From: an uncultured Planctomycetales bacterium
GTDB lineage: Bacteria > Planctomycetota > Planctomycetia > Isosphaerales > Isosphaeraceae
Direction: 5' to 3'
NCBI GenBank assembly: GCA_903926465.1
Contig: CAIYJE010000169.1
Span: forward strand, 1-64,000
Length of the DNA stretch: 64,000 bases
The notes under the pieces were generated by a model that was not told the DNA's origin, did no database searches, and was given only the letters and a program-made list of their open reading frames with translations. Positions within the stretch are counted from its first letter, which is position 1. Each line of letters opens with the position of its first letter. This document shows, one piece after another, positions 39,797 to 64,000 of the stretch. The translations under genes were made by a program, and so were the position numbers.

Positions 39797-40103
39797 GAAT
39801 CGTGCTCCACGAATCCATTTGATGGAATGCTTCAGTTTATCGTAGGCCGCCAATGGGCGTGCGGAAACCCAGGGACCCGGCCAAACCCCCGAACTGGGTC
39901 CAGAAACCACCCAATTTCAGGTTCCCCAACACCCACTTTTCAAAAAATGGACCGGTTTTCCGGGGAAAACCGTCGACAGCAGCAACCCGGCTATTCTAAA
40001 TTTGAAATAACCTGGCTGGAAACGGCCAGGTGAGAGGGTGAAGGAATGCCGCTCGGGACATGGGAGTTTTGTCCCGGAGAGTCTGCCCAGCAGGAGGAGC
40101 ACG

Positions 40104-40582: not shown

Positions 40583-40646
40583 CAAACGAAAATCCTCGGT
40601 GTGGGGACGGCAGTTGACCGTCTCCATACCGAGGAGGTTCGTTTTG
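40583..40646. terminator. Long imperfect hairpin between convergent genes
   Basis: CAAACGAAAATCCTCGGTGT... (40583-40610) pairs, with few mismatches, with CCGTCTCCATACCGAGGAGG... (40618-40646) across a 7-base loop. It lies between the small plus-strand gene and the end of the giant minus-strand gene and could terminate both. No T-run follows. Confidence 0.55.
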
Positions 40647-40759: not shown

Positions 40760-43700
40760 TCATGGCAGCTTCTTGCCCACACGGGCGGTGATCAGGTTAT
40801 AGTCGGTCATATCCACGATGCCATTCCCATCTATATCCAGGAAGGTGAGTGCCTGGGTGGGAATGATCCCCACCAGGTAGTAGTTCTTGACGATGGCGGA
40901 GTCCAAACTGTTAATTGCCAGGTCGTCATTCACGTCGCCCGGCAGCACGTCGAGCCGCCGCGCGTATGTTGTAACCTGGCCGTTGCCAATGGTCACGGTT
41001 ACCCGGTCTGCATTGATGATTCCATTGGCCGCGGTTGCGGACGTGGTGCTGTTATTGACAAAAGTGATGGTCCAGGTGGTCCCAGAGCCGGACACGCTGG
41101 TCACACTGTAGGAGGTTCCCACCACGGCGCTGATAAGCTTGATGTCACCGGCTGCCAGGCTAGGCACGGCCCGACTGAGGGTGACCGTGATCCGGTTGAT
41201 GTTCAGCCAGGGGATATCATTATTGCGGCCGGTGGGCAGCAACCGCAGCCCATCGGCGTTGGCTACCAGTGTGGCCATGCCCTTGGTGCCCCACTGCACG
41301 CCCACGCTGCTGATGGTGGCCGTGGCAACGGTCAGGCTGGCCGTGTTAGTGGTCGCAGAGCCAGCCGCGTTCGAGAACACCGCGCGGTAGATCTGACTGT
41401 TGTTGGCCAGGGCGGTGGTCATGCTAAGGGTACTGGTGGTGATTCCGTTAGTGATTGAACTGGAGACGGAGCCGGTGGCCGTGCTCCAGGTGGTGCCGTA
41501 GTCGCTGCTCACCTGCCAGGTTGTGGAGGTGGGCGTGCCACTGACCGCTGCGCCGAAGCTGGCAACGGTACCAGGTAACACATTCTGAGCGGCTGGCTGT
41601 GTAACCACGGCTGGAGCCGGTACCCCGGCCGAGATATTGGCGGTGGTGCTGACCATGGTGTTGACCGTGTAGTTGGCGGCGTCGGTACCACTGATGCTGA
41701 TGCCGGTCACACTGATGGCTACATTGCTGGCCACGCTGGCACTGGCGAAGCTGGCCGAGGCGTAATTATCGGTGAACACATCGCCATTCACCCGGTTATC
41801 GCTCAGCACCACGGCGGCGGTGGTCGTACCGTCGGCCACCTTGTTCACGCCGGTGGCGGTTACGGTGAGGGCCGCCTTGGTGATATTGGCGGTGGCGCTC
41901 GCCGTGGCGCTCATCGTATAGTTGGTGGCATTAGCGCCGGTGAGAGCCAAGCCGGTGACGGTTATGGCCTTGCCGTTGGCGGCCGTCTTATCGGCAAAGC
42001 TGGCGGTGCCGCCAGTGAGGCTCACAGTATCACCGCTAGCCACGCCCGGCAATGTATAGCTAGCAATGGTGGCGTTGGTGGTACCGTCATACACCTTATT
42101 GCTTACCGTTATGGTGGGCGTGATGGCAAGCTGTGTGATGTTGGCCGGGTTACTGACCGTGGTATTAAAGGTGTAGTTGCCGGCATCTTTTCCTGAAACT
42201 GAAATCCCGGAAACGTTGATCGTTTTGTAGCCGGCGTTCTTATCGGTGAAGTTTGCCGTGGTGTAACTATCGGTTAGAACATCGCCCACCAACCGGTTAT
42301 CGGTCAGGGTGAGTGCGGCCACGCTGGTGGTACCGTTATAGACCTTGTTGATGCCGACGAAGGTGACAGTCAGAGCCCTGGCCGTGATATCACCGGTACC
42401 ACTGGCCTTGGTGGGCAATGCGTAGTTGCTGGCCAGCGTACCGGCGGTGGCGGTAAAGTCGATGGCGGCCAGGCTGGCGGAGACCGTCAAGCCCGTTCCC
42501 ACGTTCTTAGTGGCGTAGGTGCCAGTCGTCTTGGTTACACTGAGGCCCTGAGAGCCAACAAACCCCGTCAGGCTGTAGTTGGCGGCCGTCAGCGTGACGT
42601 TGGTGGTGCCGTCATACACCTTGTTAATGGTGCCCACGATGGCCGCCGTGAGTGTTTTGGGGGTGATCGTCAGCGTACCACTGATGAACGTGTTGAAATC
42701 ATAGTTGGTGGCGGCCAAGCTACCGATCGCCGGAGCCAAGTTGTAACTGCCTGCGTTCACTCCCGTGAGAGCGGTTCCCGAAAGAATGGCGGTTCCGGTG
42801 GTCGCGTTGCTGGCCGTCTCGCTATTGACAAAGCCGGTCAAGGTGGCGGCCAAGCCAGCAAACCCTGTGGCATCATAGGTCTTAGTTTGAACAACAGCAC
42901 TAACCGTCAGATGCGCTTTAGTAATGGTCAGAGAACCAGGCACATAGGTGATGGAGTAATTGGGAGAAGTCTGGCCACTGGCCGTGATGGCTCCGGCATA
43001 CATACCCACGCTGGTGGTGGCAGACTTCGAATCAACCTTCCTCAGAGTGCCACCCAGCACGCTAACGGTTTCGTTATTGACGAACCCGCTGTAAGTCAGA
43101 TCCAGGGCCGGGTCGGAGGAACCATAGACCCGGGTCACGTTGTTGGCCGTGATGGTGAGTGGAGCGGGGGTGACGGTGAGGCTACCGGCGACATAATTGA
43201 TGTCGTAGTTGCTGGAGGTCTGGCCACTGGCCGTGATAGCTCCTGCATAAGTTCCCGCGCTGGTGTTGGCCGACCCGGAATCGACCTGGCTCAAGGTACC
43301 ACCCAGCACGCTGGCCAATTCGTTATTGACAAACCCGGTGTAGGTCACGCTCAGGGCAGGGTCGGCCGCGCCATAGACTCGGGCAACATCGTTGGCCGTG
43401 ATGGTAAGCGAAGCGGGAGTGACGGTGAGGTTGCCAGGCACAAAGGTGATGACGTAATTACTGGCAGTCAGGCCAGTGGCTGTGATGGCACCAACATAGC
43501 CACCCTTGCCGGTGGTGGTAGCCGACCGGGAATCGACCGTGCTTAAAGTGCCATTCAATACACTGGCGGTTTCGTTATTCACGAACCCGTTGTAGGTCAC
43601 GTCCAGGGCGGGTTCGGCCGCACCATAAACGCGGCTGACATTGCTTGCTGTGATTGTGAGTGAAGCCCGCGAGACGACCTGGGTCAAGCGGCTCGAAGTG

Positions 43701-49700: not shown

Positions 49701-52700
49701 CTCAGGTCGAGCTTCTTCCCAGGAACATCAAAATTATCAAACACCGCTTTGATCGTGTGGGAACCAGCGACCAGTGCTGTGGTGCTATAAGAGGCATTAC
49801 CGCTGGCATCAAGTGGAACCTTGGCAAGCAAGGTTATTCCGTCATAGAAACTCACCGTGCCTGGGGCCGACGTGTTATGGCCGTCGTTCAGTACGCAATG
49901 CGCGGTAAGAGTGACCGGGTTGAAAGCCACAGTCGATAGAGTCGAAGCCTGAAGAATTGTTGTTGTGGTAAACGATGCAAAGTCGATGGTACCGATTGCA
50001 ACTTTATTAGCCATGATGGCATTGGTTGGAATCAGATTGAGCAGGAACTGTTTCTGTTGAGCAACCGTGTTACCCACAGCGATGGGAACCGTGATCGTTT
50101 GTTTTTCCGTGTGGCCTGGTGCCCAGGTAAGAGTTCCCTGAATCGACGTATAATCTCCATTGGGAGTAGAAACGGCCGTAGAGTCGGTTGTGGAATAATT
50201 CAGTGTGATAGGCTGCAGCGTTGATGGTGTACCAATCACCCAAACGTCGAATGTGAGGGTATTGATGGCATCTGATACCGGTGAATCAACACCGTTCACG
50301 ATAATCACTGGCGGAACAAGATTGCCGATCGTGGTGGCCGTTGCCTGCGTGACCAGGGCTGTTGTAGTTTCGGCATTCACGAGGTTAGTGATACTGGAAC
50401 TATCGGAGTCGGTCCAGGCACTAGCGGCAGCCGTCAGTTGACTGGCGAGGGTCCCCATGGCGAGTGTCTGATATTGTGCCACGCCTTGAAGGTAGGTCAC
50501 TGCGTCGTCGGATGTTGGCTGCGGGAGAGTCGCGATACCATCCATGAGTCGGGCGATGACTGTCGCAGCGGAGAAACTCAACGAGTTATCAAGGGTCAGA
50601 CCGGCACTTGTGGCCACAGATCGAATCAATACGTTTACGAAGTCCGGATCGCCAAGATTGATAGCATTCCCGTTGGCACTGGTGATTGCGCTGGAAAGGC
50701 GCTGGAACGCGTACGTCATCAGAGTCGTGGTGTCTGGTGCTCCAGCACGACCGCTTATCAGTGCGGCCGTATCAAGTGCCAGTATGTAAGTATTCACTTC
50801 AGCGGCGTAGGCGTGGGCGGCCGTTGCGTTGGCGGAATAATAGGCATCGTTCATGGTCGATGCGGTGAGCAGATTATAAGTCGTTGGAATTCCCAGTCCG
50901 GCATCTATCGTGGCAATGGCCGTGGCCTCAGAGACTCCCTGCGTTTGCAACTGGAGCGTGACAAGCGTGGTCAAGGAGCTGACCATCTGAGAATCATAAG
51001 GCGCTGTGAAGCGTGTAGGATTCAGTATGTTCGTCGCCGTAACTGTTCCACCGTAGCCGACCAGTTGCCCGGTTGGATTCGTGGGCAGATTCAGTGTAAA
51101 AGCACCTGCGGCATCCGTGGTCGCACTCGGGTTACCCGACACATAAACACCGCTCATCTCGGGATCATAGAAAACGTTAGCACCGTCAATATGGAAATTG
51201 AAGACCTTTCTCCATCCTCTTCTAATCGAATTGGCAGCACTATTCGCGGCATTCCTGGCAGCGTCGAGTGCAGCCTGAGCGGCCGCGGCAGCTTCGGCAG
51301 CCGCTTGTGCTGCGGCTTCAAGTGCGGCCTCTGCCGCCGCTTCAGCTTCGGCCTCAAGTCGTGCGGCCTCTGCAATTGCAGCTTGCGCCGTATTATATGC
51401 CGTATCAAGAGTGTCTAGTGTAATATTATAAACACCAGTAACATCATTGGCGGCGGCGGAATACGCATCAGATAACGCTGCGGCCGTCTGGAGGTACGCT
51501 TTATTGACATCTTGGGCAAACTGTTGAAGAGTACCACTGATGCCATCTCCCATGGTGATATTGAAAGCACCTCCAAACCCGACGGAGATTCCCACTTCCT
51601 CGCCGGCAATGTCACTCCAGAACTGAACGTAACTGGTATTATCGCTTAGATGATTCGTATCAACGTGAATCATTGCACTCAAAGTGCCCAGGGTTGTGTT
51701 TCCACCCATGAATGTTCTAACCCAATCCGGTGCACCACTCAGACCAATACTGGCCGTACCGCTAAAAGTATAGGCTGAGTTGGCATAACTGGCCTCGAAC
51801 GACACTGACCCAAACGTTGTGCCGTAGGCGCCGAAAGTATTAGAAACTGTGAAATCAAAGCTCCTCACAGTTCCGTTCGACATGAGAAGTCCAGCCTTAC
51901 CGTTACCCCCTAACGTGATCGTCAGGGTGGAAATGGAAAGACTCATACTGCCTGAGCCAGTGATCGCGAACGTTTGTCCTGAGCGGTTATAGTCAATTAG
52001 CATGTTGCCGTGAGCAATATTCACGCCCGCATAACCGAAGTCGGAATTGACAACAAAACTAAAGGATTGCACCACCCCGTGGGTGATGACAATCCCAGAT
52101 CCGCCGGTTGACCCATTGGCGGAAACGCTCACATTTGCGAACCCCAGGTTCATCGAGGCGGAGCCCAAGATTGTGTAGGTATCTGTACTATGTAAATACT
52201 GGAATTCGAGCGAAGATTGTGCCAGTGTGTAACCCGCAAACGTGAAACTCGAACTGATGGTCAAATCCAGGCTGGTCAGGGTCCCGTTGGTAATCACCAA
52301 TCCTGGCGAATAGGTACCGTTACCATTCGCGTGTCCGAAGGTCACGTTGAACTGGCTCACCTCCAGAATATTCACGTAGGCGTTACCCGCCAGTGAATAT
52401 GTGCCACCGTTGGCATTTGAGTAAGTGAACTCCAGGTTGCAAAGCCCGAAACTCACCGCACCCACCGAGAACCCGGCATTCACCGTCATATCCATGCTGG
52501 TCAAGGTTCCGTTAGTCACAACCAGGCCGGGAGTCCGGGTGCCATCGGCATTGTTATGGCCAAACGTCACGCTGAGTCCATTGATGCCCAGGAATGTGAC
52601 ATAGGTATTACCAGACATCGTAAACACATAATTTTCGGGGTGATACGTTTTGGTCGAATCATAAGCATGAGTATAGATGCCATCGTAATTATAGGGCTGT

Positions 52701-55700
52701 CCGGTTGTGAGCTGACTGGTGTTCTGATACGTGAACTCCAGGTCCTGAACCCCAAATTGAACCCCCTTGACCCCGAACCCGGCATTCACCGTGACATCAA
52801 TACTTTCCAGGTTGCCGTTATTGATGGTCAGGCCGGGAGACACAACACCGCCGCGGCTATGGCCGAAGGTGACGCTGAGCTGACCCATGCCCTCGATGTT
52901 AACAAACGCCGAGCCCGACATCATGAACTGATAATTATTGATGTTATAGGTCTTGCTGGTGTCATAGGCGTTGGTATACACACCTGTACCGGCATAAGGC
53001 GGGCTCGAGATCTGGCTCAGGTTCTGGTACGTGAACTCCAGATCACAAACCCCAAAGATTACGCCCTGGATCGCAAACTGGGCATTCACCGTAACATCAA
53101 TACTTTCCAGATTGCCGTTATTGATGGTTAACCCGGGAGTTACCACGCCATTGCGGTTGTGACCCATGATCACGCTAAGCTGACCCATGCCCGTGATGTT
53201 CACAAACGCCGAGCCCGACATCATGAACTGGTAGTTATTGATATCATAAGTTCTGATGGTGTCATAGGTATTGGTATAGACACCGGTACCGGCATAGGGC
53301 GGGCTAGAGATCTGGCTCAGGTTCTGGTACGTGAACTCCAGATCCTGCACCCCAAACTGAACTTTACTCACGGTAAAGTCGGCCGTGATGGTCACGTCCA
53401 GGCTTTCTAGGTTTCCGCTATTGATGGTCAGGCCGGGGGTCACCACGCCATTAGGGTTATGACCGAACGATACGCTGATATCTCCGATGCCGCCAATGGT
53501 TACGAACGCCGAGCCCGACATCATGAACTGATAGTTGTTGGCGTTGTAGGTCTTGGAGGTGTCATAAGCATTGGTATAGACACCGCTGCCAGCGTAAGGA
53601 TACCCGGTGGTGAGCTGGCTGAGATTCTGGTAGGTGAACTCCAGGTCCTGCACTCCAAATTGAACTTTACTCACAGTAAAGGCAGCCGTCACGGTCACGT
53701 CCAGGCTTTCCAGGTTGCCGTTGTTAATCGTCAGGCCGGGGGTCACCACGCCATTGCGGTTATGGCCGAACGACACGCTGATATCGCCCATGCCACCGAT
53801 GGTCACGAATGCCGAGCCCGACATCATGAACTGGTAATTGTTGGCGTTGTAGGTCTTGGAGGTGTCATAGGCATGGGTATACACGCCGCTACCAGTGTAG
53901 GGATACCCGGTCGTAAGCTGGCTGAGGTTCTGGTAGGTGAACTCCAGATCTTGCACTCCGAACTTGACTTTACTCACGGCAAAGTCAGCGGTCAGGCTTA
54001 CATCCAGGCTTTCCAGGTTGCCGCTATTAATGGTCAGGCCGGGGGTCACCACACCGTTGCGGTTATGCCCGAAGTTCACGCTGAGTGCGGCATCGATTCC
54101 ATGCACGGTCACATAGGCCGAGCCCGACATCGAGAACTGGTAGTTAGAAGCGCTATAACTGGCAGTCGAGTATGCTCCGGTGTACACACCCGAGCCGCTA
54201 TAACCACCCGCAGGTACCTGGCTAAGGTTCTGGTACGTGAACTCCAGATCCTGCACTCCAAAGGCCACCATGCTCACGTTGAAGCCGGCATTAACGGTCA
54301 GATCCAGGCTCTGCAGGTTCCCGCTGGTGATGATGAGTCCTGGGGTGGTGGTGGTGACACCATTGACGGTTGTGGAATGACCAAAGGCCGCGCTGAGGCC
54401 GGCAATTCCTCCCACGGTTATGGCCGCCGAGCCGGTCATCGTAAACGTCTGATTGGACTGGGCATAGGTGAATTCTAGCCCACACAGGTTGAAGTCGACC
54501 GAACCAACCCCAACATGCGAGTTCACGGTCATGTCCAGGTTCACCAGGCTGCCGTTCTGGACGACCAGACCCGGATCATAAGTACTGGTGGCTGCATTCA
54601 AGTGGCCGAACATCACGTTGAAGGTACCCATGCCCCCCACGCTGGCGCTGCTATAGCCGGCCAGCGTGAACTGGCTGTTTGCGGCCAGATACGTGAACCG
54701 TAGGCCGGTTGTGGTCAATCTGACACTGCTCACGCTAATATCGGTATTCAGCGTCATATCCAGTGATGTCAGGCTGCCATTGGTGACCACCAGGCCGCTG
54801 GTAGCCAGGTTGCTCCCGTTGGCTAATGAGCCAAACAACACACTGACCGTTCCCATTCCGGTAGCCGTGAAGCTGCTGGCCCCCGTCATTTTAAAGACTT
54901 GGTTCCCGTTCGAAGTGTCATACTGGAACCGCAGGTGATTGGCATTGAACGACAGCGAGCCCACCGAGATCGAGGAATTCACCGTCATATCCAGTGAGGT
55001 CAGGCTGCCGTTGGTGACAATCAGTCCGGCGGTGGTGGTGGTCGTTCCGTTGGCGGTGTCGGAACCGCCAAAGGTCACGTTCACGTTGCTGGAGCCGAGC
55101 GCAAAACTGCTGGCCCCTGTCATGATGAACGTGCCACCCGCCGATGCATAAACCATCCGCAGGCCGTTGGTGGCAAACGTCAGGCCGCCGGTGGTGATGT
55201 TGCTATTCAGGGTCATGTCCAGCGAAGTGACCTGTCCATAGCTCATTACCAACCCGGTGGTTCCCGGGTTGGAACCGCTGGCTGCCGTGCCCAGAGTCAC
55301 GCTCAGGCTGCCGATATCAGACTGACTGAGTGATGCCAGGCCGGTGACCGTGAGTTTCTCGGGGTTCACTCCAGCGGCTGCCGCATAGGTCACCGCCACA
55401 CTGGGAGCATTGAACGTGGTACCTGAGATTGACCAGTTGGTCGCTGTACCGGTGGCGTTCAGGCTGGTCAGGTTACCTCCCGTCAGCACCAGGCCGGGGC
55501 TATCGGCGTTCCCCAGAGTCAGGGCCAGGGTCTTACCAGCGCCGAAAACGTCACTCGCGGATCCGGAAATCTTCAGGGTATCGCCAGCCGAGTCGTACTG
55601 TGTCGTTCCCGTGGCGTTGAAGGTACCGCCTGCAATATTCCAGTTGGTGGCGCTGGCGCTGGCGTTCAGGCTGCTCAGGGTATTGTTGGTTAGCACCAGG

Positions 55701-58700
55701 CCGGGGCTGGCGGAATTGCCCAGAGTCAGGGCCAGGGTCTTGTTACCACTGAAGGTCTCGGTGGCATTGCCATAAAGGCTGAATTTCTCTGGGCTGGAAC
55801 TGTACGTGGCGTTGCCACTGGCATTCAGGTATCCACCGGCGACTGCCCAGTTGGTGGCCAGGGCGGTGGCATTGAGGCTGGTCAGGTTACCGCCACTCAG
55901 CACCAGGCCGGGGCTATCGGCGTTCCCCAGAGTCAGGGCCAGGGTCTTGTAACCGCTGAACACTTCAGAGGCTGTGCCAGAAACCTTGAGCACGTCTCCG
56001 GAGGCGGTGTACTGGGTTGTGCCGGCGGCATTAAACGTTCCGCCCGCCACGGTCCAGTAACTGGCCATTGCCGTGGCATTGAGGCTGGTCAGGTTACCAC
56101 CGCTGAGCACCAGGCCGGGGCTGGCGGCGGACCCCAGGGTCAGCGCCAGGGTTCTGCCGCTGCTAAAGATGTCGCTGGCCGAGCCGGAGATTCTCAGAGT
56201 ATCGTCGCTGGCGGTGTAGGTGGTGTTCACGGTGGGGGCATTGAAAGTGCCACCGCCCACCGTCCAGTTGGTGACGCTGGCGGTGGCGTTCAGGCTGGTG
56301 AGCTGGTTATTGGTGAGTACCAGGCCAGGATTGGAGCTGGAGCCCAGTGTAAGGCTCAGGGTTTTGGCTGTGGTACCGGTACCGAACACTTCGCTGGCCG
56401 TGCCGTAAACCGCCAGTACATCATTGGTGCCCGATGTGTACCTGGTATTGATTGTCGTGGAATTGAAAATACCGCCGGCAATCGTCCAGTTGGTGGCGGT
56501 GGCGGTGGCATTCAGGCTGCTCAGGCTGCCCCCGCTCAGAGTCAGGCCGGGGCTAGCGGCGGACCCCAGGGTCAGGCCCAGGGTCTTACCGCCGCTGAAC
56601 ACCTCGGTTGCTGAGCCAGAAACGCTCAGCACATCGCCTGAAGACGAGTACGTGGCTGTAATCGTCGGGGCGTCGAAGGCACCGCCGCCCACGGTCCAGC
56701 CGGTGGCGCTGGCGGTGGCGTTCAGGCTGCTCAGGGTGTTATTGGTGAGCACCAGTCCGGGGCTGGCGTTGGAACCCAGGGTGAGGGACAGGGTTTTGGC
56801 GGTGGTACCGGTACCAAACACTTCGCTGGCCGCGCCGTAAACTGCCAGCACATCATTGGTGCCCGATGTGTACCTGGTGCTCACGGTAGTGGCGTTGAAG
56901 ATACCGCCGGCGATGGTCCAGTTCGTGGCACTGGCGGTGGCATTTAAACTGGTGAGGTTACCACCGGTCAGCACCAGGCCGGGGCTGGCAGAGGTGCCCA
57001 GGGTCAGGGCCAGGGTTTTACCCACGCTGAAGACTTCCGAGGCCGATCCAGAGACCTGAAGCTCATCTCCAGCCGCGTTGTATCTGGTGTTGATGGCGGT
57101 GGCGTTGAAGGTACCACCGGCAATGGTCCAGTTGGTGGCGGTGGCGGTGGCGTTTAAACTGGTGAGGTTGCCACCGCTGAGTACCAGCCCAGGGGTGGCG
57201 CTGGAACCCAGGGTCAGGCCCAGGGTTTTGCCCCCGCTAAACACGTCGCTGGCCGATCCAGACATGCTCAGGACGTCGCCGGTGGCGGTGTACTGGGTGC
57301 TGCCCGATGCGTTGAACGTGCCACCGACGATGTTCCAGTTAGTGGCGGTAGCGGAAGCGTTTAAACTGGTGAGGTTGCCACCGCTGAGTACCAGCCCAGG
57401 GGTGGCGCTGGAACCCAGGGTCAGGGCCAGGGTCTTGCCACCGTTGAACACGTCGGTTGCCGAACCGTACACGCTCAGGATGTCGCCGGTTGAGGAATAG
57501 GTTGTGTTGACGGTGGGGGCGTCAAATGCACCACCGCCCACCGTCCAGCCGGTGGCACTGGCGGTGGCGTTCAAGCTGGAGAGGTTGCCACCAGAAAGCA
57601 CCAGACCGGGGCTGGCGGAACTGCCCAGGGTCAGGCCCAGGGTCTTGCCGCCAGTGAATACGGCCCTGGCCGAGCCGGAAACGCTCAAGACGTCGCCCGA
57701 CGAAGTATAAGTCGTGGTCACGGTAGGCGCGTTAAAGGTGCCACCTCCGACCGTCCAGCCGGTGACGCTGGCCCTGGCGTTTAAACTGGTCAGGTTGCCA
57801 CCGCTGAGTACCAGGCCAGGGTTTACGGCGTTTCCTAGCGTGAGGGCCAGGGTTTTGCCGCCGTTGAACACGTCGGTGGCAGATCCATACACGCTCAAGA
57901 TGTCGCCGGCAGAGGAGTACTGGGTGGTCACGGTGGTGGCGTTGAAGGTGCCGCCGCCCACTGCCCAGTTGCTGGCCGTGGCGGTGGCGTTCAGGCTGGT
58001 GAGATTGCCGCCACTCAGGATCAGGCCGGGGTTGGTGTCTGTACCCAGGGTCAGGCCCAGGATTTTGGCTGTGGTACCGGTGCCAAAAACGTCGGTCGCC
58101 GAGCCAGAAACGCTCAGCACGTCTCCGCTAGCGGTGTAAGTGGTGGTGATCGTGGGGGCATTGAAGGTGCCACCGCCCACCGTCCAGTTGGTAGCGCTGG
58201 CGGTGGCATTTAAACTGGTAAGGTTGCCTCCGGTCAGCACCAGGCCGGGGTTGGCGGAACTGCCCAGAGTCAGGGCCAGCGTTCGACCGCCGTTGAAGAC
58301 GTCGGTGGCTGAGCCGTAGACCTTCAGGGTGTCGCCGGTGGAGGTGTACTGGGTGTTGCCCGCGGTGTTGAACGTACCACCGCCAATGGTCCAGTCACTG
58401 GCGCTGGCGGTAGCGTTCAAGCTGGTGAGGTTGCCACCCGAAAGTACCAGTCCCGGGCTGTCTGCGGCACCCAGGGTAAGAGCCAGGGTTTTGCCGCCGC
58501 TGAAAACGGCAGTCGCTGAGCCAGACATGCTCAGGATATCGCCGATGGAGGTGTACTGGGTGTTGCCTGCGGCGTTGAATGTACCGCCGCCCAGCGTCCA
58601 GTTAGTGGCGGTGGCGGTGGCGTTTAAACTGGTGAGGTTGCCGCCCGAAAGGATCAACCCTGGGCTGGTGATGGTACCCAGGGTCAGAGCCAGGGTTTTG

Positions 58701-61700
58701 CCGCCGCTGAAGATGTCGGTGGCCGAGCCAGACATGCTCAGCACGTCGCCGGTGGCGGTGTACTGGGTATTGCCCGCGGCGTTGAAGGTGCCGCCGCCCA
58801 CTGTCCAGCCGCTGGCGGTGGCGGTGGCGTTTAAACTGGTGAGGTTGCCACCGCTGAGCACCAGACCTGGGTTTGAGTCACTGCCCAGGGTCAGGCCCAG
58901 GGTTTTGCCTCCATTGAACAGATCGGTGGCCGAGCCAGACATGCTCAGCACGTCGCCGGTGGCGGTGTACTGGGTGTTGCCCGTGGCATTGAATGTACCG
59001 CCGCCCACCGTCCAGCCGGTGGCGGTGGCCGTGGCGTTGAGGCTGGTGAGGTTGCCGCCGCTCAGGATCAGGCCGGGGTTCGCGGCAGATCCCAGGGTCA
59101 GACCCAGCGTTTTGGCCGTAGTACCGGTACCAAAAACGTCGCTGGCCGTGCCATAGACCTTCAGGATGTCGCCATCGGAGGTGTATTTGGTGTTACCTGT
59201 AGCGTTGAAGGCACCGCCGCCCACCGTCCAGCTGGTGGCGGTGGCGGTGGCGTTCAAACTGGTCAGGTTGCCGCCGCTCAGCACCAGGCCGGGGTTCGCA
59301 GCAGATCCCAGGGTCAGGCTCAGGGTTTTGGCGGGAATACCGGCGCCAAAGACGTCGGTGGCCGTGCCAGATACACTCAGAATGTCATAGGTTGAGTTAT
59401 AGGTTGTGGTGACCGCGGGGGCATTGAAGATGCCGCCGCCCACGGCCCAGCCAGTCGCGCTGGCGGTGGCGTTCAGGCTGGTGAGGTTGCCACCACTCAA
59501 GATCAATCCAGGGTTACTAGCATCGCCCAGGGTCAGGGCCAGGGTTCGGTTGCCGCTGAAAACGTCGGTCGCCGAGCCAGACATCTTGAGCACGTCGCCT
59601 TCAGATGTGTATGTAGTGTTCACATCATGTGTATTGAAGGTGCCGCCGCCCACGGCCCAGTTGGTGGCACTGGCGATGGCATTCAAACTGGTGAGCTTGC
59701 CACCGCTCAGGATCAACCCGGGGTTACTGGAATCGCCCAGGGTCAGGCTCAGGATTCGGTTGCCACTGAAAACGTCGGTCGCCGAGCCATAGACCTTCAG
59801 GATGTCATCCGAGGTGTACTGGGTATTGCCCGAAGCGTTGAAGTTGCCGCCACCCACACTCCAACCGGTGGCGCTTGCCGTGGCGTTGAGGCTGGTGAGG
59901 TTGCCACCGCTCAGGATCAACCCGGGGTTACTGGAATCGCCCAGGGTCAGGGCCAGGGTTCGGTTGCCGCTGAAGACGTTGGTCGCGTTACCAGAAATCG
60001 AAAGCAAATCGCCGGTGGAGGTGTACTGGGTGGTCCCCAACGCGTTGAAAGTGCCGCCCGCCACCGACCAGTTGGAGATGGTGGCGGTGGCGTTCAAGCT
60101 GGTCAGGTTGCCACCGGTCAGCACCAGTCCAGGGTTAGCTGCGGAACCCAGTGCTAGTGCCAGAGTTTTGGCACCACTGAAAACTTCGGTGGCCGATCCA
60201 TAAACCTTGAGTTCGTCGCCATCAGAGGTGTATTTAGTGTAAAAGGCAGGCGCATTGAAGGTGCCGCCGGCAATGGTCCAGCTGGAGGCGCTGGCGGTGG
60301 CGTCTAAACTGGTCAGGTTGCCGCCACTGAGTACCAAGCCCGGGTAATCGACGTTTCCAAGGGTCAGGCCCAGAGTCTTGCCGCCGCTGAAGACTTCGGT
60401 GGCACTGCCGTAAACACGGATCTGTTCGGGCGACGAGGTATATTCGGTGTTAATCGTTGGAGCATTGAAGGTACCGCCTGCAATATTCCAGTTGGTGGCG
60501 CTGGCCGTGGCATTTAAACTAGTGAGTGATCCGTTGGTGAGTACCAGGCCGGGGCTGGCGGAACTGCCCAGCGTCAGACCCAGGGTTTTGGCCGTGGTGT
60601 TGGTACCAAATACCGCGCTGGCCGAGCCATAAACCGCCAGCACATCGTTGGTGCCTGCGGTGTACTTTGTATTGATCGTCCTGGAATTGAAAACGCCACC
60701 GGCGATGGTCCAGTTGGTGGCACTGGCCATGGCGTTCAGGCTGGAAAGCGTGTTGCTCGTCAAGATGAGTCCCGGGCTCAATGAAGTACCCAGGGTCAGG
60801 CTCAGGGTTTTAGCCGTGGAGCCGGTGCCAAACACGTCGCTGGCCGAGCCATACACTTTCAGTGTGTCACTACTGGCCGTGTAGTTGGTGTTGATCGTAG
60901 GCGCATTGAAGGTACCGCCGGCAATAGTCCAGTTGGTAGCGCTGGCCGTGGCATTGAGGCTGGTCAGGCTACCACCGCTGAGCACCAGTCCCGGACTCGC
61001 AGTCGTGCCCAGGGTCAGGGCCAGGGTTTTGGCCCCGCTGAAAACGTCGGTCGCTATTCCAGAAACGTTCAGGATGTCATCCGAGGTGTACTGCGTGTTC
61101 CCCGTGGCATTGAAAACACCACCGCCCACCGTCCAGTCGGTGGCGGTAGCCGTGGCGTTCAGGCTGGTGAGGTTACCGCCGCTCAGCAACAGTCCGGGGC
61201 TGGCGGAACTGCCCAGCGTCAGGCCCAGGGTCTGACCACTGCCGAAGACGTCGGTCGCCGAGCCATAGACGCTCATCACGTCGCCGGTCGGTGTGTACTG
61301 GGTATTGACCGCAGGGGCGTTGAAGGTACCGCCCGCCACTGTCCAGTTTCTGGCACGGGCGGTGGCGTTCAGGCTGCTCAGAGTGTTGTTTGTGAGCACC
61401 AGGCCAGGGCTGGTGCTTGAGCCCAGGGTGAGGGAGAGCGTTTTACCACCACTGAAGACCTCGGTGGCATTACCATACACGCTGACTTGATCATTCGATG
61501 ACGTGTACTGGGTATTGATGGTGTTTGAGTTGAAGGTACCGCCGGCCACCGTCCAGCCGGAGGCGCTGGCCGTGGCATTGAGGCTGGTCAGCGTATTACT
61601 GGTCAGTACCAGTCCGGGACTGGCGGAACTTCCCAGCGTCAGGCCCAGCGTTTTGCCACCACTGAACACCTCGGTGGCACTGCCATACACGCTAAGCTGG

Positions 61701-64000
61701 TCATTCGAAGAGGTGTACTGGGTATTGATGGTTGGCGCATTGAAGGTGCCGCCGGCAATGGTCCAGTTGGTAACGCTGGCGGTGGCATTGAGGCTGCTCA
61801 GCGTATTACTGGTCAGTACCAGTCCGGGGCTGGCGGAACTGCCCAGCGTCAGGCCCAGCGTTTTACCACCACTGAAGACCTCGGTGGCACTGCCGTAAAC
61901 GCTGAGCTGGTCATTCGAGGACGTGTACTGGGTATTGATGGTGATTGAGTTGAAGGTACCGCCGGCCACCGTCCAGCCGGTGGCGCTGGCCGTGGCATTG
62001 AGGCTGCTCAGCGTATTGTTGGTCAGTACCAGTCCGGGGCTGACGGAACTTCCCAGCGTCAGGCCCAGCGTTTTGCCGCCGCTGAAGACCTCGGTGGCAC
62101 TGCCGTAAACCTTGAGCTGTTCGGGGCTCGATGAGTAAGTGGTGTTGATGGTGTTTGAGTTGAAGGTACCGCCGGCAATGGCCCAGCCGGTGGCGCTGGC
62201 CGTGGCGTTCAAACTGGTCAGGCTGCCGCCACTCAGGACCAGGCCGGGGTTGGCGGCGCTACCCAGGGTCAGCGCCAGGGTTCGGCCGCCACCGAAGACA
62301 TCGGTGGCGTTCCCGTAGACCTTCAGCACATCCCCGGTTGAAGTATAGGTGGTCGTGCCCGAGGCATTGAACGTACCGCCGGCAACGGTCCATCCCGTGG
62401 CCGTGGCTGTTGCGTTGAGGCTCGACAAAGAATTCCCGCTGATCACAAGCCCTGCACTGGCGCATGTTCCCAGGTTCAGGGCCAGGGTCTTACCGCCACT
62501 GAAGACGTCGGTCGCCGTACCACTGATTGCAAAGTTATCCACTGTGCTGGGTGCAACGGCCGCACCATAGGCAACTGTCGCCCCGGTTGCACTGAACTGA
62601 CCACCGCCCACCAGCCAGTAATTATTGCTGCCGGTGGCGGTGTTCCCGGTCGCATTCAGGCTGGTCAGGCTACCGTTGCTGATCACCAGTCCTGCGCTGG
62701 CAAGAGTTCCAAGATCAAGATTCAAGACCTTCTGATCGCTGCCAAACGTCAAAGCGGCCGACCCGCTCACGGTAAACTGTTGAGTGGCGGAGTTATAGGT
62801 CAGGACATCGCCCGTCGAGGTCAGGGTGCCACCGGCCAGAGCTGCGTTGAGGTTCACCGTGGCATTGAAGTTGGTAACAACGCCATTGGTGATGACCAAC
62901 CCCTGGGTAACGCCGCCCCCAAGGTACGCGCTGAGTGTGCCCAGGCCCGTGACCACCACCGTACTACTACCCTGGAAACCAAAAGTATTGGTGGCATTGG
63001 TGTAACTGACAACCAGGTCGCTGGTGCTGAACTGGAGCGCACCCAGGTCAAGAGTGCCGCCAGCGACGGTTGCGCTGATGCCGGTCAGGCTCACCCCCTG
63101 CGAATTGATCACCACATCGTTGGAACCAGAAACCGCGACGGTCATGCCAGCCAGGTTCATACTGCCCTGCAGCAAAATACTGGAAGTGGCTTGATCCAGT
63201 TGAACCGAACTCAATGTGAATGTAGACCCAGCCACTGTGACATTTGCCCCATCAACGACTGACAGCCCGGAATCCACCAGTGATGAGATACTGCTGGTGG
63301 TAAGTCCACCCATGGTCAATGGGATCTTGGTACCACTGATGATGCCGTAAACCGTTCCGCTGACGGCCAGCGTCAGTGATCCGGTATCAATCGAGACGGT
63401 TCCATCGAGTTCCAAGAGCGGTACGAATGCTGAACCATCGGCGGGGACGTAGCCAGCCTGAATGGTTCCGGTGGCAACCTGAAGCCCACCGCTGGAAACG
63501 AAATTCGAATCGGCCAGAAATTCGATTCCACCCGAAATCACCTCGTTGGGCGGCGTACCGGTTCCTTCGTAAATAATGTTCAGTGTGCCACTGGTAAAGG
63601 TGGTGAACGCATAATTGGAAGAACAGAGCGTGCCCAGGCTGGGAATGATGGGATAAGAACCAACGTTCACAGCCGTGAGCGCACTACCCGTTTCAACCGC
63701 AGCACCCGTGATATCGCTTGTACTTGCAGTTTCACCGTTTTTCAAGCCACGGTAAGAGACCGTGAAGGGGTCAGAAAACGCTTGACCGTTATAGGTCATC
63801 GTTTGGGAGTTGGCAACCACCGTCAGAGGGGCCTTGGTCACGGTGAGCGAGGTGGGCACGTAGCTGATTGAATAATTGGTCGATGTCAGGCCACTTACCG
63901 AGACCACATTAGCGTAAGTTCCCACGGCCGCCGAGCCTGTTTGCGTGTCAGACTCTCTGACCACGCCACCTAGCACACTGGCGGTTTCGCCATTGACAAA
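40760..64000 (-). CDS. Giant secreted beta-repeat protein with MBG/YDG/Ig modules and dockerin-like C terminus (5' end outside window)
   Basis: One uninterrupted frame covers 7,746 residues here and continues past the right edge, so the start and signal peptide are not seen. Order from the N-terminal side: an MBG module; a beta-rich linker; about 35 repeats of about 68 residues (62.7-55.4 kb); a second repeat type (55.4-52.3 kb) including six near-identical about 100-residue units with LEFTYQNLSQ; an Ala/Glu-rich helical stretch (51.4-51.2 kb); a carboxypeptidase-regulatory-like beta domain; a Calx-beta-like domain (about 50.3 kb); MBG and Ig-like modules; nine YDG modules (47.1-44.8 kb); more Ig-like and MBG modules; four YDG modules; and a dockerin-like pair of calcium loops at the end. 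No catalytic motif is seen. It is most likely a cell-surface or adhesion protein; its function is not established. Confidence 0.88.
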   Translation of the reverse strand, partial: FVNGETASVLGGVVRESDTQTGSAAVGTYANVVSVSGLTSTNYSISYVPTSLTVTKAPLTVVANSQTMTYNGQAFSDPFTVSYRGLKNGETASTSDITGAAVETGSALTAVNVGSYPIIPSLGTLCSSNYAFTTFTSGTLNIIYEGTGTPPNEVISGGIEFLADSNFVSSGGLQVATGTIQAGYVPADGSAFVPLLELDGTVSIDTGSLTLAVSGTVYGIISGTKIPLTMGGLTTSSISSLVDSGLSVVDGANVTVAGSTFTLSSVQLDQATSSILLQGSMNLAGMTVAVSGSNDVVINSQGVSLTGISATVAGGTLDLGALQFSTSDLVVSYTNATNTFGFQGSSTVVVTGLGTLSAYLGGGVTQGLVITNGVVTNFNATVNLNAALAGGTLTSTGDVLTYNSATQQFTVSGSAALTFGSDQKVLNLDLGTLASAGLVISNGSLTSLNATGNTATGSNNYWLVGGGQFSATGATVAYGAAVAPSTVDNFAISGTATDVFSGGKTLALNLGTCASAGLVISGNSLSSLNATATATGWTVAGGTFNASGTTTYTSTGDVLKVYGNATDVFGGGRTLALTLGSAANPGLVLSGGSLTSLNATASATGWAIAGGTFNSNTINTTYSSSPEQLKVYGSATEVFSGGKTLGLTLGSSVSPGLVLTNNTLSSLNATASATGWTVAGGTFNSITINTQYTSSNDQLSVYGSATEVFSGGKTLGLTLGSSASPGLVLTSNTLSSLNATASVTNWTIAGGTFNAPTINTQYTSSNDQLSVYGSATEVFSGGKTLGLTLGSSASPGLVLTSNTLTSLNATASASGWTVAGGTFNSNTINTQYTSSNDQVSVYGNATEVFSGGKTLSLTLGSSTSPGLVLTNNTLSSLNATARARNWTVAGGTFNAPAVNTQYTPTGDVMSVYGSATDVFGSGQTLGLTLGSSASPGLLLSGGNLTSLNATATATDWTVGGGVFNATGNTQYTSDDILNVSGIATDVFSGAKTLALTLGTTASPGLVLSGGSLTSLNATASATNWTIAGGTFNAPTINTNYTASSDTLKVYGSASDVFGTGSTAKTLSLTLGTSLSPGLILTSNTLSSLNAMASATNWTIAGGVFNSRTINTKYTAGTNDVLAVYGSASAVFGTNTTAKTLGLTLGSSASPGLVLTNGSLTSLNATASATNWNIAGGTFNAPTINTEYTSSPEQIRVYGSATEVFSGGKTLGLTLGNVDYPGLVLSGGNLTSLDATASASSWTIAGGTFNAPAFYTKYTSDGDELKVYGSATEVFSGAKTLALALGSAANPGLVLTGGNLTSLNATATISNWSVAGGTFNALGTTQYTSTGDLLSISGNATNVFSGNRTLALTLGDSSNPGLILSGGNLTSLNATASATGWSVGGGNFNASGNTQYTSDDILKVYGSATDVFSGNRILSLTLGDSSNPGLILSGGKLTSLNAIASATNWAVGGGTFNTHDVNTTYTSEGDVLKMSGSATDVFSGNRTLALTLGDASNPGLILSGGNLTSLNATASATGWAVGGGIFNAPAVTTTYNSTYDILSVSGTATDVFGAGIPAKTLSLTLGSAANPGLVLSGGNLTSLNATATATSWTVGGGAFNATGNTKYTSDGDILKVYGTASDVFGTGTTAKTLGLTLGSAANPGLILSGGNLTSLNATATATGWTVGGGTFNATGNTQYTATGDVLSMSGSATDLFNGGKTLGLTLGSDSNPGLVLSGGNLTSLNATATASGWTVGGGTFNAAGNTQYTATGDVLSMSGSATDIFSGGKTLALTLGTITSPGLILSGGNLTSLNATATATNWTLGGGTFNAAGNTQYTSIGDILSMSGSATAVFSGGKTLALTLGAADSPGLVLSGGNLTSLNATASASDWTIGGGTFNTAGNTQYTSTGDTLKVYGSATDVFNGGRTLALTLGSSANPGLVLTGGNLTSLNATASATNWTVGGGTFNAPTITTTYTASGDVLSVSGSATDVFGTGTTAKILGLTLGTDTNPGLILSGGNLTSLNATATASNWAVGGGTFNATTVTTQYSSAGDILSVYGSATDVFNGGKTLALTLGNAVNPGLVLSGGNLTSLNARASVTGWTVGGGTFNAPTVTTTYTSSGDVLSVSGSARAVFTGGKTLGLTLGSSASPGLVLSGGNLSSLNATASATGWTVGGGAFDAPTVNTTYSSTGDILSVYGSATDVFNGGKTLALTLGSSATPGLVLSGGNLTSLNASATATNWNIVGGTFNASGSTQYTATGDVLSMSGSASDVFSGGKTLGLTLGSSATPGLVLSGGNLTSLNATATATNWTIAGGTFNATAINTRYNAAGDELQVSGSASEVFSVGKTLALTLGTSASPGLVLTGGNLTSLNATASATNWTIAGGIFNATTVSTRYTSGTNDVLAVYGAASEVFGTGTTAKTLSLTLGSNASPGLVLTNNTLSSLNATASATGWTVGGGAFDAPTITATYSSSGDVLSVSGSATEVFSGGKTLGLTLGSAASPGLTLSGGSLSSLNATATATNWTIAGGIFNSTTINTRYTSGTNDVLAVYGTASEVFGTGTTAKTLSLTLGSSSNPGLVLTNNQLTSLNATASVTNWTVGGGTFNAPTVNTTYTASDDTLRISGSASDIFSSGRTLALTLGSAASPGLVLSGGNLTSLNATAMASYWTVAGGTFNAAGTTQYTASGDVLKVSGTASEVFSGYKTLALTLGNADSPGLVLSGGNLTSLNATALATNWAVAGGYLNASGNATYSSSPEKFSLYGNATETFSGNKTLALTLGNSASPGLVLTNNTLSSLNASASATNWNIAGGTFNATGTTQYDSAGDTLKISGSASDVFGAGKTLALTLGNADSPGLVLTGGNLTSLNATGTATNWSISGTTFNAPSVAVTYAAAAGVNPEKLTVTGLASLSQSDIGSLSVTLGTAASGSNPGTTGLVMSYGQVTSLDMTLNSNITTGGLTFATNGLRMVYASAGGTFIMTGASSFALGSSNVNVTFGGSDTANGTTTTTAGLIVTNGSLTSLDMTVNSSISVGSLSFNANHLRFQYDTSNGNQVFKMTGASSFTATGMGTVSVLFGSLANGSNLATSGLVVTNGSLTSLDMTLNTDISVSSVRLTTTGLRFTYLAANSQFTLAGYSSASVGGMGTFNVMFGHLNAATSTYDPGLVVQNGSLVNLDMTVNSHVGVGSVDFNLCGLEFTYAQSNQTFTMTGSAAITVGGIAGLSAAFGHSTTVNGVTTTTPGLIITSGNLQSLDLTVNAGFNVSMVAFGVQDLEFTYQNLSQVPAGGYSGSGVYTGAYSTASYSASNYQFSMSGSAYVTVHGIDAALSVNFGHNRNGVVTPGLTINSGNLESLDVSLTADFAVSKVKFGVQDLEFTYQNLSQLTTGYPYTGSGVYTHAYDTSKTYNANNYQFMMSGSAFVTIGGMGDISVSFGHNRNGVVTPGLTINNGNLESLDVTVTAAFTVSKVQFGVQDLEFTYQNLSQLTTGYPYAGSGVYTNAYDTSKTYNANNYQFMMSGSAFVTIGGIGDISVSFGHNPNGVVTPGLTINSGNLESLDVTITADFTVSKVQFGVQDLEFTYQNLSQISSPPYAGTGVYTNTYDTIRTYDINNYQFMMSGSAFVNITGMGQLSVIMGHNRNGVVTPGLTINNGNLESIDVTVNAQFAIQGVIFGVCDLEFTYQNLSQISSPPYAGTGVYTNAYDTSKTYNINNYQFMMSGSAFVNIEGMGQLSVTFGHSRGGVVSPGLTINNGNLESIDVTVNAGFGVKGVQFGVQDLEFTYQNTSQLTTGQPYNYDGIYTHAYDSTKTYHPENYVFTMSGNTYVTFLGINGLSVTFGHNNADGTRTPGLVVTNGTLTSMDMTVNAGFSVGAVSFGLCNLEFTYSNANGGTYSLAGNAYVNILEVSQFNVTFGHANGNGTYSPGLVITNGTLTSLDLTISSSFTFAGYTLAQSSLEFQYLHSTDTYTILGSASMNLGFANVSVSANGSTGGSGIVITHGVVQSFSFVVNSDFGYAGVNIAHGNMLIDYNRSGQTFAITGSGSMSLSISTLTITLGGNGKAGLLMSNGTVRSFDFTVSNTFGAYGTTFGSVSFEASYANSAYTFSGTASIGLSGAPDWVRTFMGGNTTLGTLSAMIHVDTNHLSDNTSYVQFWSDIAGEEVGISVGFGGAFNITMGDGISGTLQQFAQDVNKAYLQTAAALSDAYSAAANDVTGVYNITLDTLDTAYNTAQAAIAEAARLEAEAEAAAEAALEAAAQAAAEAAAAAQAALDAARNAANSAANSIRRGWRKVFNFHIDGANVFYDPEMSGVYVSGNPSATTDAAGAFTLNLPTNPTGQLVGYGGTVTATNILNPTRFTAPYDSQMVSSLTTLVTLQLQTQGVSEATAIATIDAGLGIPTTYNLLTASTMNDAYYSANATAAHAYAAEVNTYILALDTAALISGRAGAPDTTTLMTYAFQRLSSAITSANGNAINLGDPDFVNVLIRSVATSAGLTLDNSLSFSAATVIARLMDGIATLPQPTSDDAVTYLQGVAQYQTLAMGTLASQLTAAASAWTDSDSSSITNLVNAETTTALVTQATATTIGNLVPPVIIVNGVDSPVSDAINTLTFDVWVIGTPSTLQPITLNYSTTDSTAVSTPNGDYTSIQGTLTWAPGHTEKQTITVPIAVGNTVAQQKQFLLNLIPTNAIMANKVAIGTIDFASFTTTTILQASTLSTVAFNPVTLTAHCVLNDGHNTSAPGTVSFYDGITLLAKVPLDASGNASYSTTALVAGSHTIKAVFDNFDVPGKKLDLSESAAINLTVTKASQAISFNSINNITYGASNIILQATTTNLGIVTYQVSSGPAIISNGNILNITGAGTVVVEADQAGDDYYDAVLATQTFTVSKATLTVTVDNQSIVYGQAISTPTQTISGFVNGESAADLTTLPTPRIAPTGSGAGTYDITSSSGAASNYSFIYMPATLTIAQAPLTVTVDPQTMTYGSTLPGLTYSISGFVNGETAVTLTTGPTLGTVAATSNAGLYNISASGVTDPNYNMIYVPGTLTITPAFLTITANSASITYGNALPTFTVSYSGLVNSDSASSLDQAPTVVRNSASKNAGGYNLTPSGAMDPNYSIRYVPGTLTIQQAPLTITANDATAVYGMPLPAFTATYTGFVNGDTVDYLTQQPIFSVNASLPGSSAISVSGAIDPNYSISYVSGTLTVTQTQSVVNLTTSNASPTIGDSITLLALVSTTLGTSLTTGTLQFQVDGVDVGSPSSLNASGVATITLNTLSAGSHQIGAIYLSGNASILDSSSTLQQTICGMGTTTTEVLAQGTAIYGQGVSFAAMVQAYTAIAGSKPTGTVQFSVDGTQVGAPVTITSAASAVSQILNSLSAGTHSVLANYTSDTLTYLNSSQIISIQIERADQAMQFSTPATVGFGHVPITLNGTASSSLPVEYIVVSGAATISDGKLLTINGAGAVVLQASQPGNQNYKPASDVVTTLEVTAAPTTTTVTSSAASTVYGQPATFTTHVASSLDDTFNLSGTVQFQIDGVNHDNPLVLDHGIATMVAPSNLTAGSHSVTATYIPSANFAGSSSVSVTQLVTPAPLTITVSNATRVYGASDSPISVTYSGLVNGEASSALGGTLSFTVSKPASTGVGSYAAAISASGLTSTNYDITYVGGSLTITPKALTASILGTPTKVYDGTNQATLSIAKVSLEGLVGVDSFDIIQVSGLYESKNASTSSTVTATLDESNFQAANGTLASNYTLPTLATGVGAISPCLLTITFTAQDQTYDGTTRVVALSTTDNRFIGDSLYPSYTAASFATKNAGTGKTVTITGIALNGTDANNYLVSATAITLGNITPRSLTVTPTAVDKVYDGTTVATVTLADNRVEGDSLSISETSASFEDKNAGQAKTVTVNGLSVSGADAVNYSVAHTPSTTANISQRPLAMTPVVSDKVYDGTTAATVTLTDNRIAGDRINVFCGVSFVDKNAGANKPIALNDIQLSGADALNYSVSNTTTATASIARRALAVFATASNKVYDGTTAAMVTLTDNRLAGDVLAAASSTARFADKNAGLGKPVNVSGITISGPDSGNYSPNSSASTSASITPKAILVSAQASDKVYDGSTAATVTLTDNRVSGDSLTLSNTIASFEDKNANLYKVVNVSGITVSGADAANYTANTTTSSVANVTRRNLTITATATDKSYDGGTSVTVNLADDRISGDQLSISDTASFADKNAGSNTLVTVVGITLCGADSANYSTSKSISTNASISKRALTVNANASDKVYDGTSRADVTFSDDRVNGDVLTTVASNASFADRNVGSIKPVSVSGISLRGTDAGNYTVNATASSSASISQRPLTVSPNASDKVYDGTTSVTVILADNRAIGDLLTLSYASAGFADANSGVNKMVNVTGLTITGASAANYTVNSSASTMATINLLVPGMVISVLPTSPTTTDAVTFSAAVTMADGSPLTIGTIKFLVDGVDQGSILVNNSGSAQWTSSPMTAGVHDFTAVYTSANDSIQGTSQTLQQLVRGQGTTSTQVHVNGTMVYGQPIWFSASVLNQGSVNSSAIPTGQVQFSIDGNPIGNPVSVNSSGNASSSFTISPGAGHYVIGAAYNSNSASFENSSQSIDVVIDQASQTIHFDSLGSVNFGVQPIALAGTSSSGLDVAYQVISGPASIENNTLVISNSGTVIVEAIQPGDTNFLSATAVRSTLVVNTASTITSVSSSLVSSVYGQQVAFHAGVGSDASNGVTANGTVQFQIDDVSYGSPVALVNGSADINAPSSLTAGNHDITAIYSGSSLFVGSTSSRLTQVVSRASLTITASNVSRVYGAAEPALDVTYNGFVNNETASVLNGTLSTVDSRSATTTGKGGYVGAITATGLTASNYVITFVPGNLTVTPASLTITANDVARVYGAADPALSVTYTGFVNNELASVLGGTLSQVDSGSANTSAGTYAGAITASGQTSSNYDINYVAGSLTVTPAPLTITANNVTRVYGSSDPALDLTYSGFVNNETVSVLGGTLRKVDSKSATTSVGMYAGAITASGQTSPNYSITYVPGSLTITKAHLTVSAVVQTKTYDATGFAGLAATLTGFVNSETASNATTGTAILSGTALTGVNAGSYNLAPAIGSLAATNYDFNTFISGTLTITPKTLTAAIVGTINKVYDGTTNVTLTAANYSLTGFVGSQGLSVTKTTGTYATKNVGTGLTVSASLAAIDFTATAGTLASNYALPTKASGTGDITARALTVTFVGINKVYNGTTSVAALTLTDNRLVGDVLTDSYTTANFTDKNAGYKTINVSGISVSGKDAGNYTFNTTVSNPANITQLAITPTITVSNKVYDGTTNATIASYTLPGVASGDTVSLTGGTASFADKTAANGKAITVTGLALTGANATNYTMSATASATANITKAALTVTATGVNKVADGTTTAAVVLSDNRVNGDVFTDNYASASFASASVASNVAISVTGISISGTDAANYTVNTMVSTTANISAGVPAPAVVTQPAAQNVLPGTVASFGAAVSGTPTSTTWQVSSDYGTTWSTATGSVSSSITNGITTSTLSMTTALANNSQIYRAVFSNAAGSATTNTASLTVATATISSVGVQWGTKGMATLVANADGLRLLPTGRNNDIPWLNINRITVTLSRAVPSLAAGDIKLISAVVGTSYSVTSVSGSGTTWTITFVNNSTTSATAANGIINADRVTVTIGNGQVTTYARRLDVLPGDVNDDLAINSLDSAIVKNYYLVGIIPTQALTFLDIDGNGIVDMTDYNLITARVGKKLP
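40763..40955 (-). other. Dockerin-like C-terminal module of the giant protein
   Basis: The last 60 or so residues hold two calcium-loop repeats, GDVNDDLAINSLDSAIV and LDIDGNGIVDMTDYNLI, with the D-x-N/D-x-D pattern of type I dockerins. In cellulosomes dockerins bind cohesins; no cohesin was seen in the window. In planctomycetes such modules end many large secreted proteins. Confidence 0.8.
41630..42660 (-). repeat. Second YDG block (4 modules)
   Basis: Four modules with the core KVYDGTTN, KVYNGTTS, KVYDGTTN and KVADGTTT, each of about 80 residues followed by an NYT-type strand. They lie near the C terminus. Confidence 0.75.
42670..43700 (-). repeat. MBG module cluster
   Basis: Three to four modules of the pattern LTITAxxVxRVYGxxDPALxxTYxGFVNxE, about 80 residues each, with the coding for GAITASGQTSxNY repeated. 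The DNA copies are close enough to suggest recent duplication. Confidence 0.75.
44820..47060 (-). repeat. First YDG block (9 modules)
   Basis: Nine tandem modules centred on a core such as DKVYDGTTAATVTLTDNR and ending in SGADAxNY-type strands. Divergent members include SYDGGTSV and VYDGTSRA. The plus-strand open frames over this block are shadows. Confidence 0.8.
51210..51410 (-). other. Alanine-rich helical segment in the giant protein
   Basis: About 65 residues built of Ala with Glu, such as AEAARLEAEAEAAAEAAL and AAAAAQAALDAARNAANSA. It is the only clearly helical, possibly coiled-coil part in an otherwise beta-rich protein and ends at RRGWRKVFNFHID. It divides the repeat half from the modular half. 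Confidence 0.7.
52520..54300 (-). repeat. LEFTYQNLSQ tandem array (6 copies, about 300 bp each)
   Basis: Six units of about 100 residues contain VQDLEFTYQNLSQ, then a Tyr/Gly-rich insert with GVYTNAYDTSKTY, NYQFMMSGSAFVTIGG and FGHNRNGVVTPGLTINNGN. DNA identity between several copies is high, suggesting recent expansion. Related shorter units lie on both sides. Confidence 0.85.
55400..62680 (-). repeat. Tandem array of about 35 beta repeats, about 68 residues each
   Basis: I counted 35 copies of the motif SLNATAxAxxW(T/A)(V/I)(A/G)GGTFN, followed by a variable INTxYTSxxD and then SVYGSATEVFSGGKTLxLTLGSSxxPGLVLxxxxL. The unit is about 205 bp and stays in frame throughout. Variation is concentrated in the loop between TFN and DxL and in the xxNTL/GGNL turn. 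Typical of a beta-solenoid, although no structure was computed. Confidence 0.85.

Follow-up and report, generated by a model that had tools for sequence, protein, structure and literature searches.

A giant gene probably cut near its front

The DNA stretch analysed here (the window: 64,000 bases, corresponding to bases 1-64000 of the 68,266-base contig C169 in an assembly of 207 contigs and 6.9 Mb) carries on its minus strand, at 40760-64000, a single reading frame of 7,746 codons with zero stops. Probably, this frame is the 3' four-fifths of an Isosphaeraceae gene for a cell-surface or extracellular-matrix protein of about 11,405 residues, which was interrupted by an ISAs1 element and in which a long repeat array would form a stiff rod equipped with binding modules. 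In all likelihood, the part seen in the window is a 3' fragment that lacks the leader.

The frame was first noticed in a sequence-only reading as a stop-free stretch of 23.2 kb and at least 7,746 residues that is still open at the window edge. This holds, and the frame even grows beyond the edge to position ~68125 of C169, giving 9,122 codons in total on this contig. With the base composition of the contig, the probability of 9,122 open codons by chance is ~e^-318, while the other five frames of the same stretch contain 122 to 646 stops. Third-position GC is 66%, and the encoded residues are dominated by threonine (15%), serine (12.5%), alanine (11%) and glycine (11%), with 0.1% cysteine. About 125 bases beyond the stop codon, an 18-pair stem-loop (40593..40635) is a possible terminator.

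A chance frame or an artefact of repeat assembly is a very improbable explanation. Sister arrays in the same genome do stop at contig edges, so that such arrays evidently trouble assembly; however, apart from the chance estimate, two properties of the array speak against an artefact here. First, the canonical units differ at synonymous sites far more than at non-synonymous ones (pS 0.54, pN 0.22, median dN/dS 0.26), which indicates that the sequence is translated and selected. Second, exact repeats in the gene reach 69 bp at most, and contig ends overlap by ~140 bp; the assembler should therefore meet no ambiguity in the array, and its collapse is unlikely. Near and distant units of the array are almost equally similar (identities mostly 0.65-0.70), so that recent local copying has left no clear trace.

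Probable interruption by an ISAs1 element

The frame on C169 terminates at the end of an insertion sequence, where there is no natural start. The final ~140 bases of the contig lie outside the gene, and the same 138-141 bases recur at 18 contig ends, in every case right at the edge, as expected of a multi-copy insertion sequence that fragments the draft assembly. This end encodes RAALGLLKNETTLKVGIKNKRLTAGWDESYLEKVLLG, followed by a stop; among the matches listed, identity is 54-73% over 32-35 residues, and the annotated ones are mostly ISAs1-family transposases. The right end of the element reads ...TATGGTGCAATCGCCCTG, and a mismatch-tolerant search with it revealed a second class of element ends, ...AATCGCGCAATCGCCCTG, at 16 contig edges. 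Both ends have GCAATCGCCCTG in common as terminal inverted repeats. Eleven exact 10-bp flank pairings between the two end classes represent target duplications, one of which, GTGGAAATAA, pairs C169 (right) with C198 (left). The element therefore combines terminal inverted repeats and a target duplication within the 8-10 bp of the ISAs1 family with a transposase C-terminus related to ISAs1, although ~140 bp per end is all of it that is visible in the assembly. Near-identical copies of this one element explain many contig breaks of the genome, with 18 right-end and 16 left-end edges and 11 pairs that can be rejoined.

C198 contains an open frame of 2,344 codons that continues into the ISAs1 element. 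Counted from the first plausible start, MLMKLLRRLRLHKLF..., this frame has 2,286 codons, which together with the C169 part add up to the ~11,405 codons of the whole gene (~34 kb). If one copy of the duplication is removed, the empty site reads ...DIGAFQSAGFTITAIGGNNQTATPGTAFNTSLTTRV... in frame. Independent support for the C198-C169 join comes from an internal duplicate module of C198 without the element (...DIGAFQSAGFNISATSGGNQNAITRTAYGSSLVTTV...), which aligns through the junction with a score of 401. Based on these sequence comparisons, we infer the join, and the giant gene appears to be split near its front by the insertion. The sequence-only reading had proposed to look to the right for a start codon and signal peptide: a plausible start indeed lies on C198, with a basic leader, whereas C169 itself offers no natural one. 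The leader is followed by the motif LESLEGRRLL (also given as GMESLEGRRLL). The leader does not conform to the textbook picture of a signal peptide. A motif comparable to LESLEGRRLL occurs in paralogs and relatives.

It is conceivable, though unlikely, that the living strain has an intact gene, with the element end reflecting a sub-population event or a mis-join, and that the protein of 11,405 residues is made. Neither half shows further stops or frameshifts and the repeat units are under purifying selection, both of which would fit an intact gene, but a recent insertion accounts equally well for intact halves. Moreover, 11 sites pair by exact 10-bp duplications, with C169-C198 among them, and the empty, uninterrupted junction site is absent from the whole assembly. 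We thus favour the interrupted gene.

The same ISAs1 element has also split a second large dockerin-ended surface gene (L071, C137:1-9283, and L100, C24:1-6000); there, the 10-bp duplication is CCGCCGGCCC, and the reading continues without a stop through the empty site.

Domain organization

The protein encoded by the joined gene is built from modules of an extracellular type, namely Big_3_5, MBG_2, YDG, Calx-beta, NHL, Laminin_G_3 and Beta_helix. The C198 part comprises the leader, Laminin_G_3, eight Big_3_5 and two Beta_helix/choice-of-anchor-Q blocks. On C169 beyond the window, Pfam finds five Big_3_5, a propeller of the NHL/teneurin type and five MBG_2, the tail of which reaches into the window (63554..64000, minus strand as all following domains; boundary approximate). 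Next comes a domain that precedes the array (GGIEFLADSNF...FVPLLELDGTVS, 63074..63532; boundary approximate), then the array itself (51713..63073) and an array-closing domain (MGGNTTLGTLSAMIHV..., 51527..51712). Compared by eye, relatives have similar domains before and after their arrays. An Ala/Glu-rich stretch, presumably helical (51218..51526), leads to a putative linker region with no Pfam match (50300..51217), which may consist of a CNA-B-like plus a helical domain. Behind it lie a Calx-beta domain (50021..50248, Pfam E 2.4e-7), tandem Big_3_5, MBG_2 and YDG modules (41615..49966; E 3e-57, 7e-125 and 8e-169, respectively), an I-set-like Ig module (41327..41614; E 2.7e-4, which is below the Pfam cut-off) and, at the C-terminus, a dockerin type I domain in which two calcium-loop motifs are present (40781..40942). 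Within the window, Pfam counts seven Big_3_5, nine MBG_2 and 14 YDG modules, and an NCBIfam scan of the window part returned zero matches.

In agreement with the earlier suspicion of an unusual surface or secreted protein, this domain content supports the surface or secreted type together with giant size and modular repeats, and the Pfam results bear out that no enzyme domain is present. The end suspected to be dockerin-like is a real Dockerin_1 (E 8e-10; 39.2 bits against a Pfam cut-off of 22.9, and 47.2 bits in a second search). Of the ten dockerins in the host genome, most belong to giant ORFs or form the end of truncated ones. A search of the host genome for cohesin (PF00963) gave no match, whereas the control genome used for validation did; as this search found no cohesin, cellulosome-type docking was rejected.

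Two further C-terminal dockerin ends, L011 (C184:1-560) and L012 (C154:1-557), have ~84% DNA identity to the end of the window gene. They share an exact stretch of 141 bp with each other and probably represent an unresolved assembly branch between paralogs.

Among the neighbours of the giant gene are genes for a sulfatase and for a cytochrome c protein of the RoxA-like type (34519-36336 and 38423-39910 of the window), neither of which shows an obvious connection to it. Together with an ABC ATPase gene that also flanks it, they point to no pathway.

The repeat array

A single profile detects 51 tandem units in an unbroken row, which spans residues 1686 to ~5480 of the C169 part and amounts to about one third of the giant protein. 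The units measure 68-80 residues initially and up to 102 later. The sequence-only reading had spoken of two different repeat arrays; if those of 70 and 100 residues were meant, this has to be corrected, since by their common profile both are one repeat family. A second sort of tandem modules does follow in the modular later half (Big_3_5, MBG_2 and the 14 YDG). The unit has no consistent match in Pfam, NCBIfam or PDB chains, including a profile search of the PDB. Scattered Pfam matches of single units (KH_PARP14_3, Glucodextran_B, DUF5666 and others) vary from unit to unit and were dismissed as composition matches.

For structure prediction with AlphaFold, a shallow alignment of 28 close sequences for six canonical units yielded a pLDDT of 46 and was discarded. 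A more diverse alignment, in which 47 four-unit stretches of the window were combined with one from locus L099 (48 in total), resulted in an almost all-beta model of four units (54311-55225) with a mean pLDDT of 91.6 and a pTM of 0.83. The model has about five strands per unit in a pattern that continues across unit borders, and the strand columns alternate between hydrophobic and polar residues. Foldseek returned no match at E <= 0.001 against the PDB (best E 0.09) and nothing at this threshold against viral models.

In this context, the array might be a hydrophobic beta-groove that binds or moves lipids or other hydrophobic matter, like LptA, apolipoprotein B or the bridge-like lipid-transfer proteins, which we consider quite doubtful. 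Such a role concerns the array only and would be compatible with an interrupted gene. The strand pattern running from unit to unit and the alternation of the columns are in line with it, as is the presence of apoB100 and LptA, next to porins, in the insignificant Foldseek list. Nevertheless, the core of any beta-solenoid or sandwich should alternate in this way, sequence searches matched none of these families, and every PDB match is insignificant, so that the comparison with LptA (E 0.41, probability 0.23) does not place the model in a repeating beta-groove fold. With the same strong reservation, one may picture the predicted structure as a new extracellular beta-repeat fold of the Isosphaeraceae, an amphipathic ribbon whose hydrophobic groove would accommodate lipids or hydrophobic polymers and which would comprise 2-51 units across species. 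For the array in the interrupted gene, we prefer the stiff rod.

Distribution of the repeat

The repeat was detected in nine of 45 genomes of the same family, the host genome included, and of 392 genomes sampled across the phylum, the host genome alone matched at E <= 1e-5. A search of genome contigs with the repeat found one locus, in a Planctomycetota MAG from Lac Pavin; the middle domain gave none in the same kind of search, and neither did the repeat in viral contigs. Array proteins of other Isosphaeraceae (for example G010, G022, G032 and G033) share the unit profile and a leader of the LExLExRxLL type, and their arrays are flanked on both sides by similar domains. They differ in their C-terminal modules and in having 2 to 27 detected units in comparison to the 51 described here. 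In one of them (L102, G033:C13), a 27-unit array consists of two unit types that alternate nearly identically, in contrast to the diverged units of the window gene.

The host genome itself has at least five further array genes, on C46 (L010), C180 (L086), C85 (L088), C154 (L012) and C78 (L087), several of which leave the contig edge inside the array.

Relation to known giant proteins and proposed function

Giant genes (Reva and Tummler 2008, as cited in PMC5352709) are a recognised trait of the Planctomycetota, and Dockerin_1 occurs at a higher proportion in the huge proteins of this phylum (PMC11573180). The gene described here belongs to this known kind: it exceeds the 5 kb and 5,000 residues used for planctomycete giant proteins already with the 9,122 codons on one contig, and with C198 it reaches ~11,405. 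It also has the extracellular-type repeats, the Dockerin_1 and several counterparts in the same genome. The initial description of such genes as rare therefore needs to be qualified, since they are a known trait of the phylum, often with Dockerin_1 (PMC11573180, PMC5352709), and the host genome has several more. At ~34 kb, the gene is large but no record, as the largest planctomycete giant genes reported measure ~36 kb (PMC5352709). What sets it apart is that one third consists of a 51-unit repeat without a relative in Pfam, NCBIfam or the PDB and that it is interrupted by ISAs1. As far as these databases show, both the repeat family and the severing of such a gene by ISAs1 are new.

Comparable features are known from other systems. 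The giant ORFs of the Omnitrophota (PMC10066038), a different phylum, also encode extracellular proteins of giant size in which adhesion-type domains occur together with laminin_G_3 and dockerins of a non-cellulosomal kind, but these reach up to 39,678 residues and in many cases have transmembrane helices, of which none are evident by eye here. Cellulosome or "planctosome" cohesin-dockerin systems (PMC6461901) resemble our case in that a type I dockerin ends a probably secreted protein; in contrast to them, the giant protein has no enzyme domain, and no cohesin was found in the host genome.

Taken together, we suggest that intact versions of the protein would be exported through the basic leader and that the array would act as a long stiff amphipathic beta rod that keeps the binding modules at a distance from the cell surface. 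Within aggregates or a biofilm, the modules of the Ig, laminin-G and propeller types may then attach to polysaccharide or protein, and the dockerin could serve as a calcium-stabilised end or as an attachment module with a partner other than a Pfam-type cohesin. It is from the domain content that we infer a role in adhesion or coating, and Pfam matches to repeat modules are no proof of adhesion; for predation, which had also been considered, we found no support. In the host strain, the 9,122-codon part without its leader would not be exported and is probably not made.

These observations advise caution, as the largest ORF of a draft genome may be a fragment cut by a transposon, and they illustrate that target-site duplications can be used to rejoin contigs. 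The giant proteins of planctomycetes have been counted in many genome papers and are hardly understood. A single repeat family whose fold is predicted with confidence, which has no known relative and which varies naturally from 2 to 51 units within the Isosphaeraceae, offers a tractable handle on the role of these giants.
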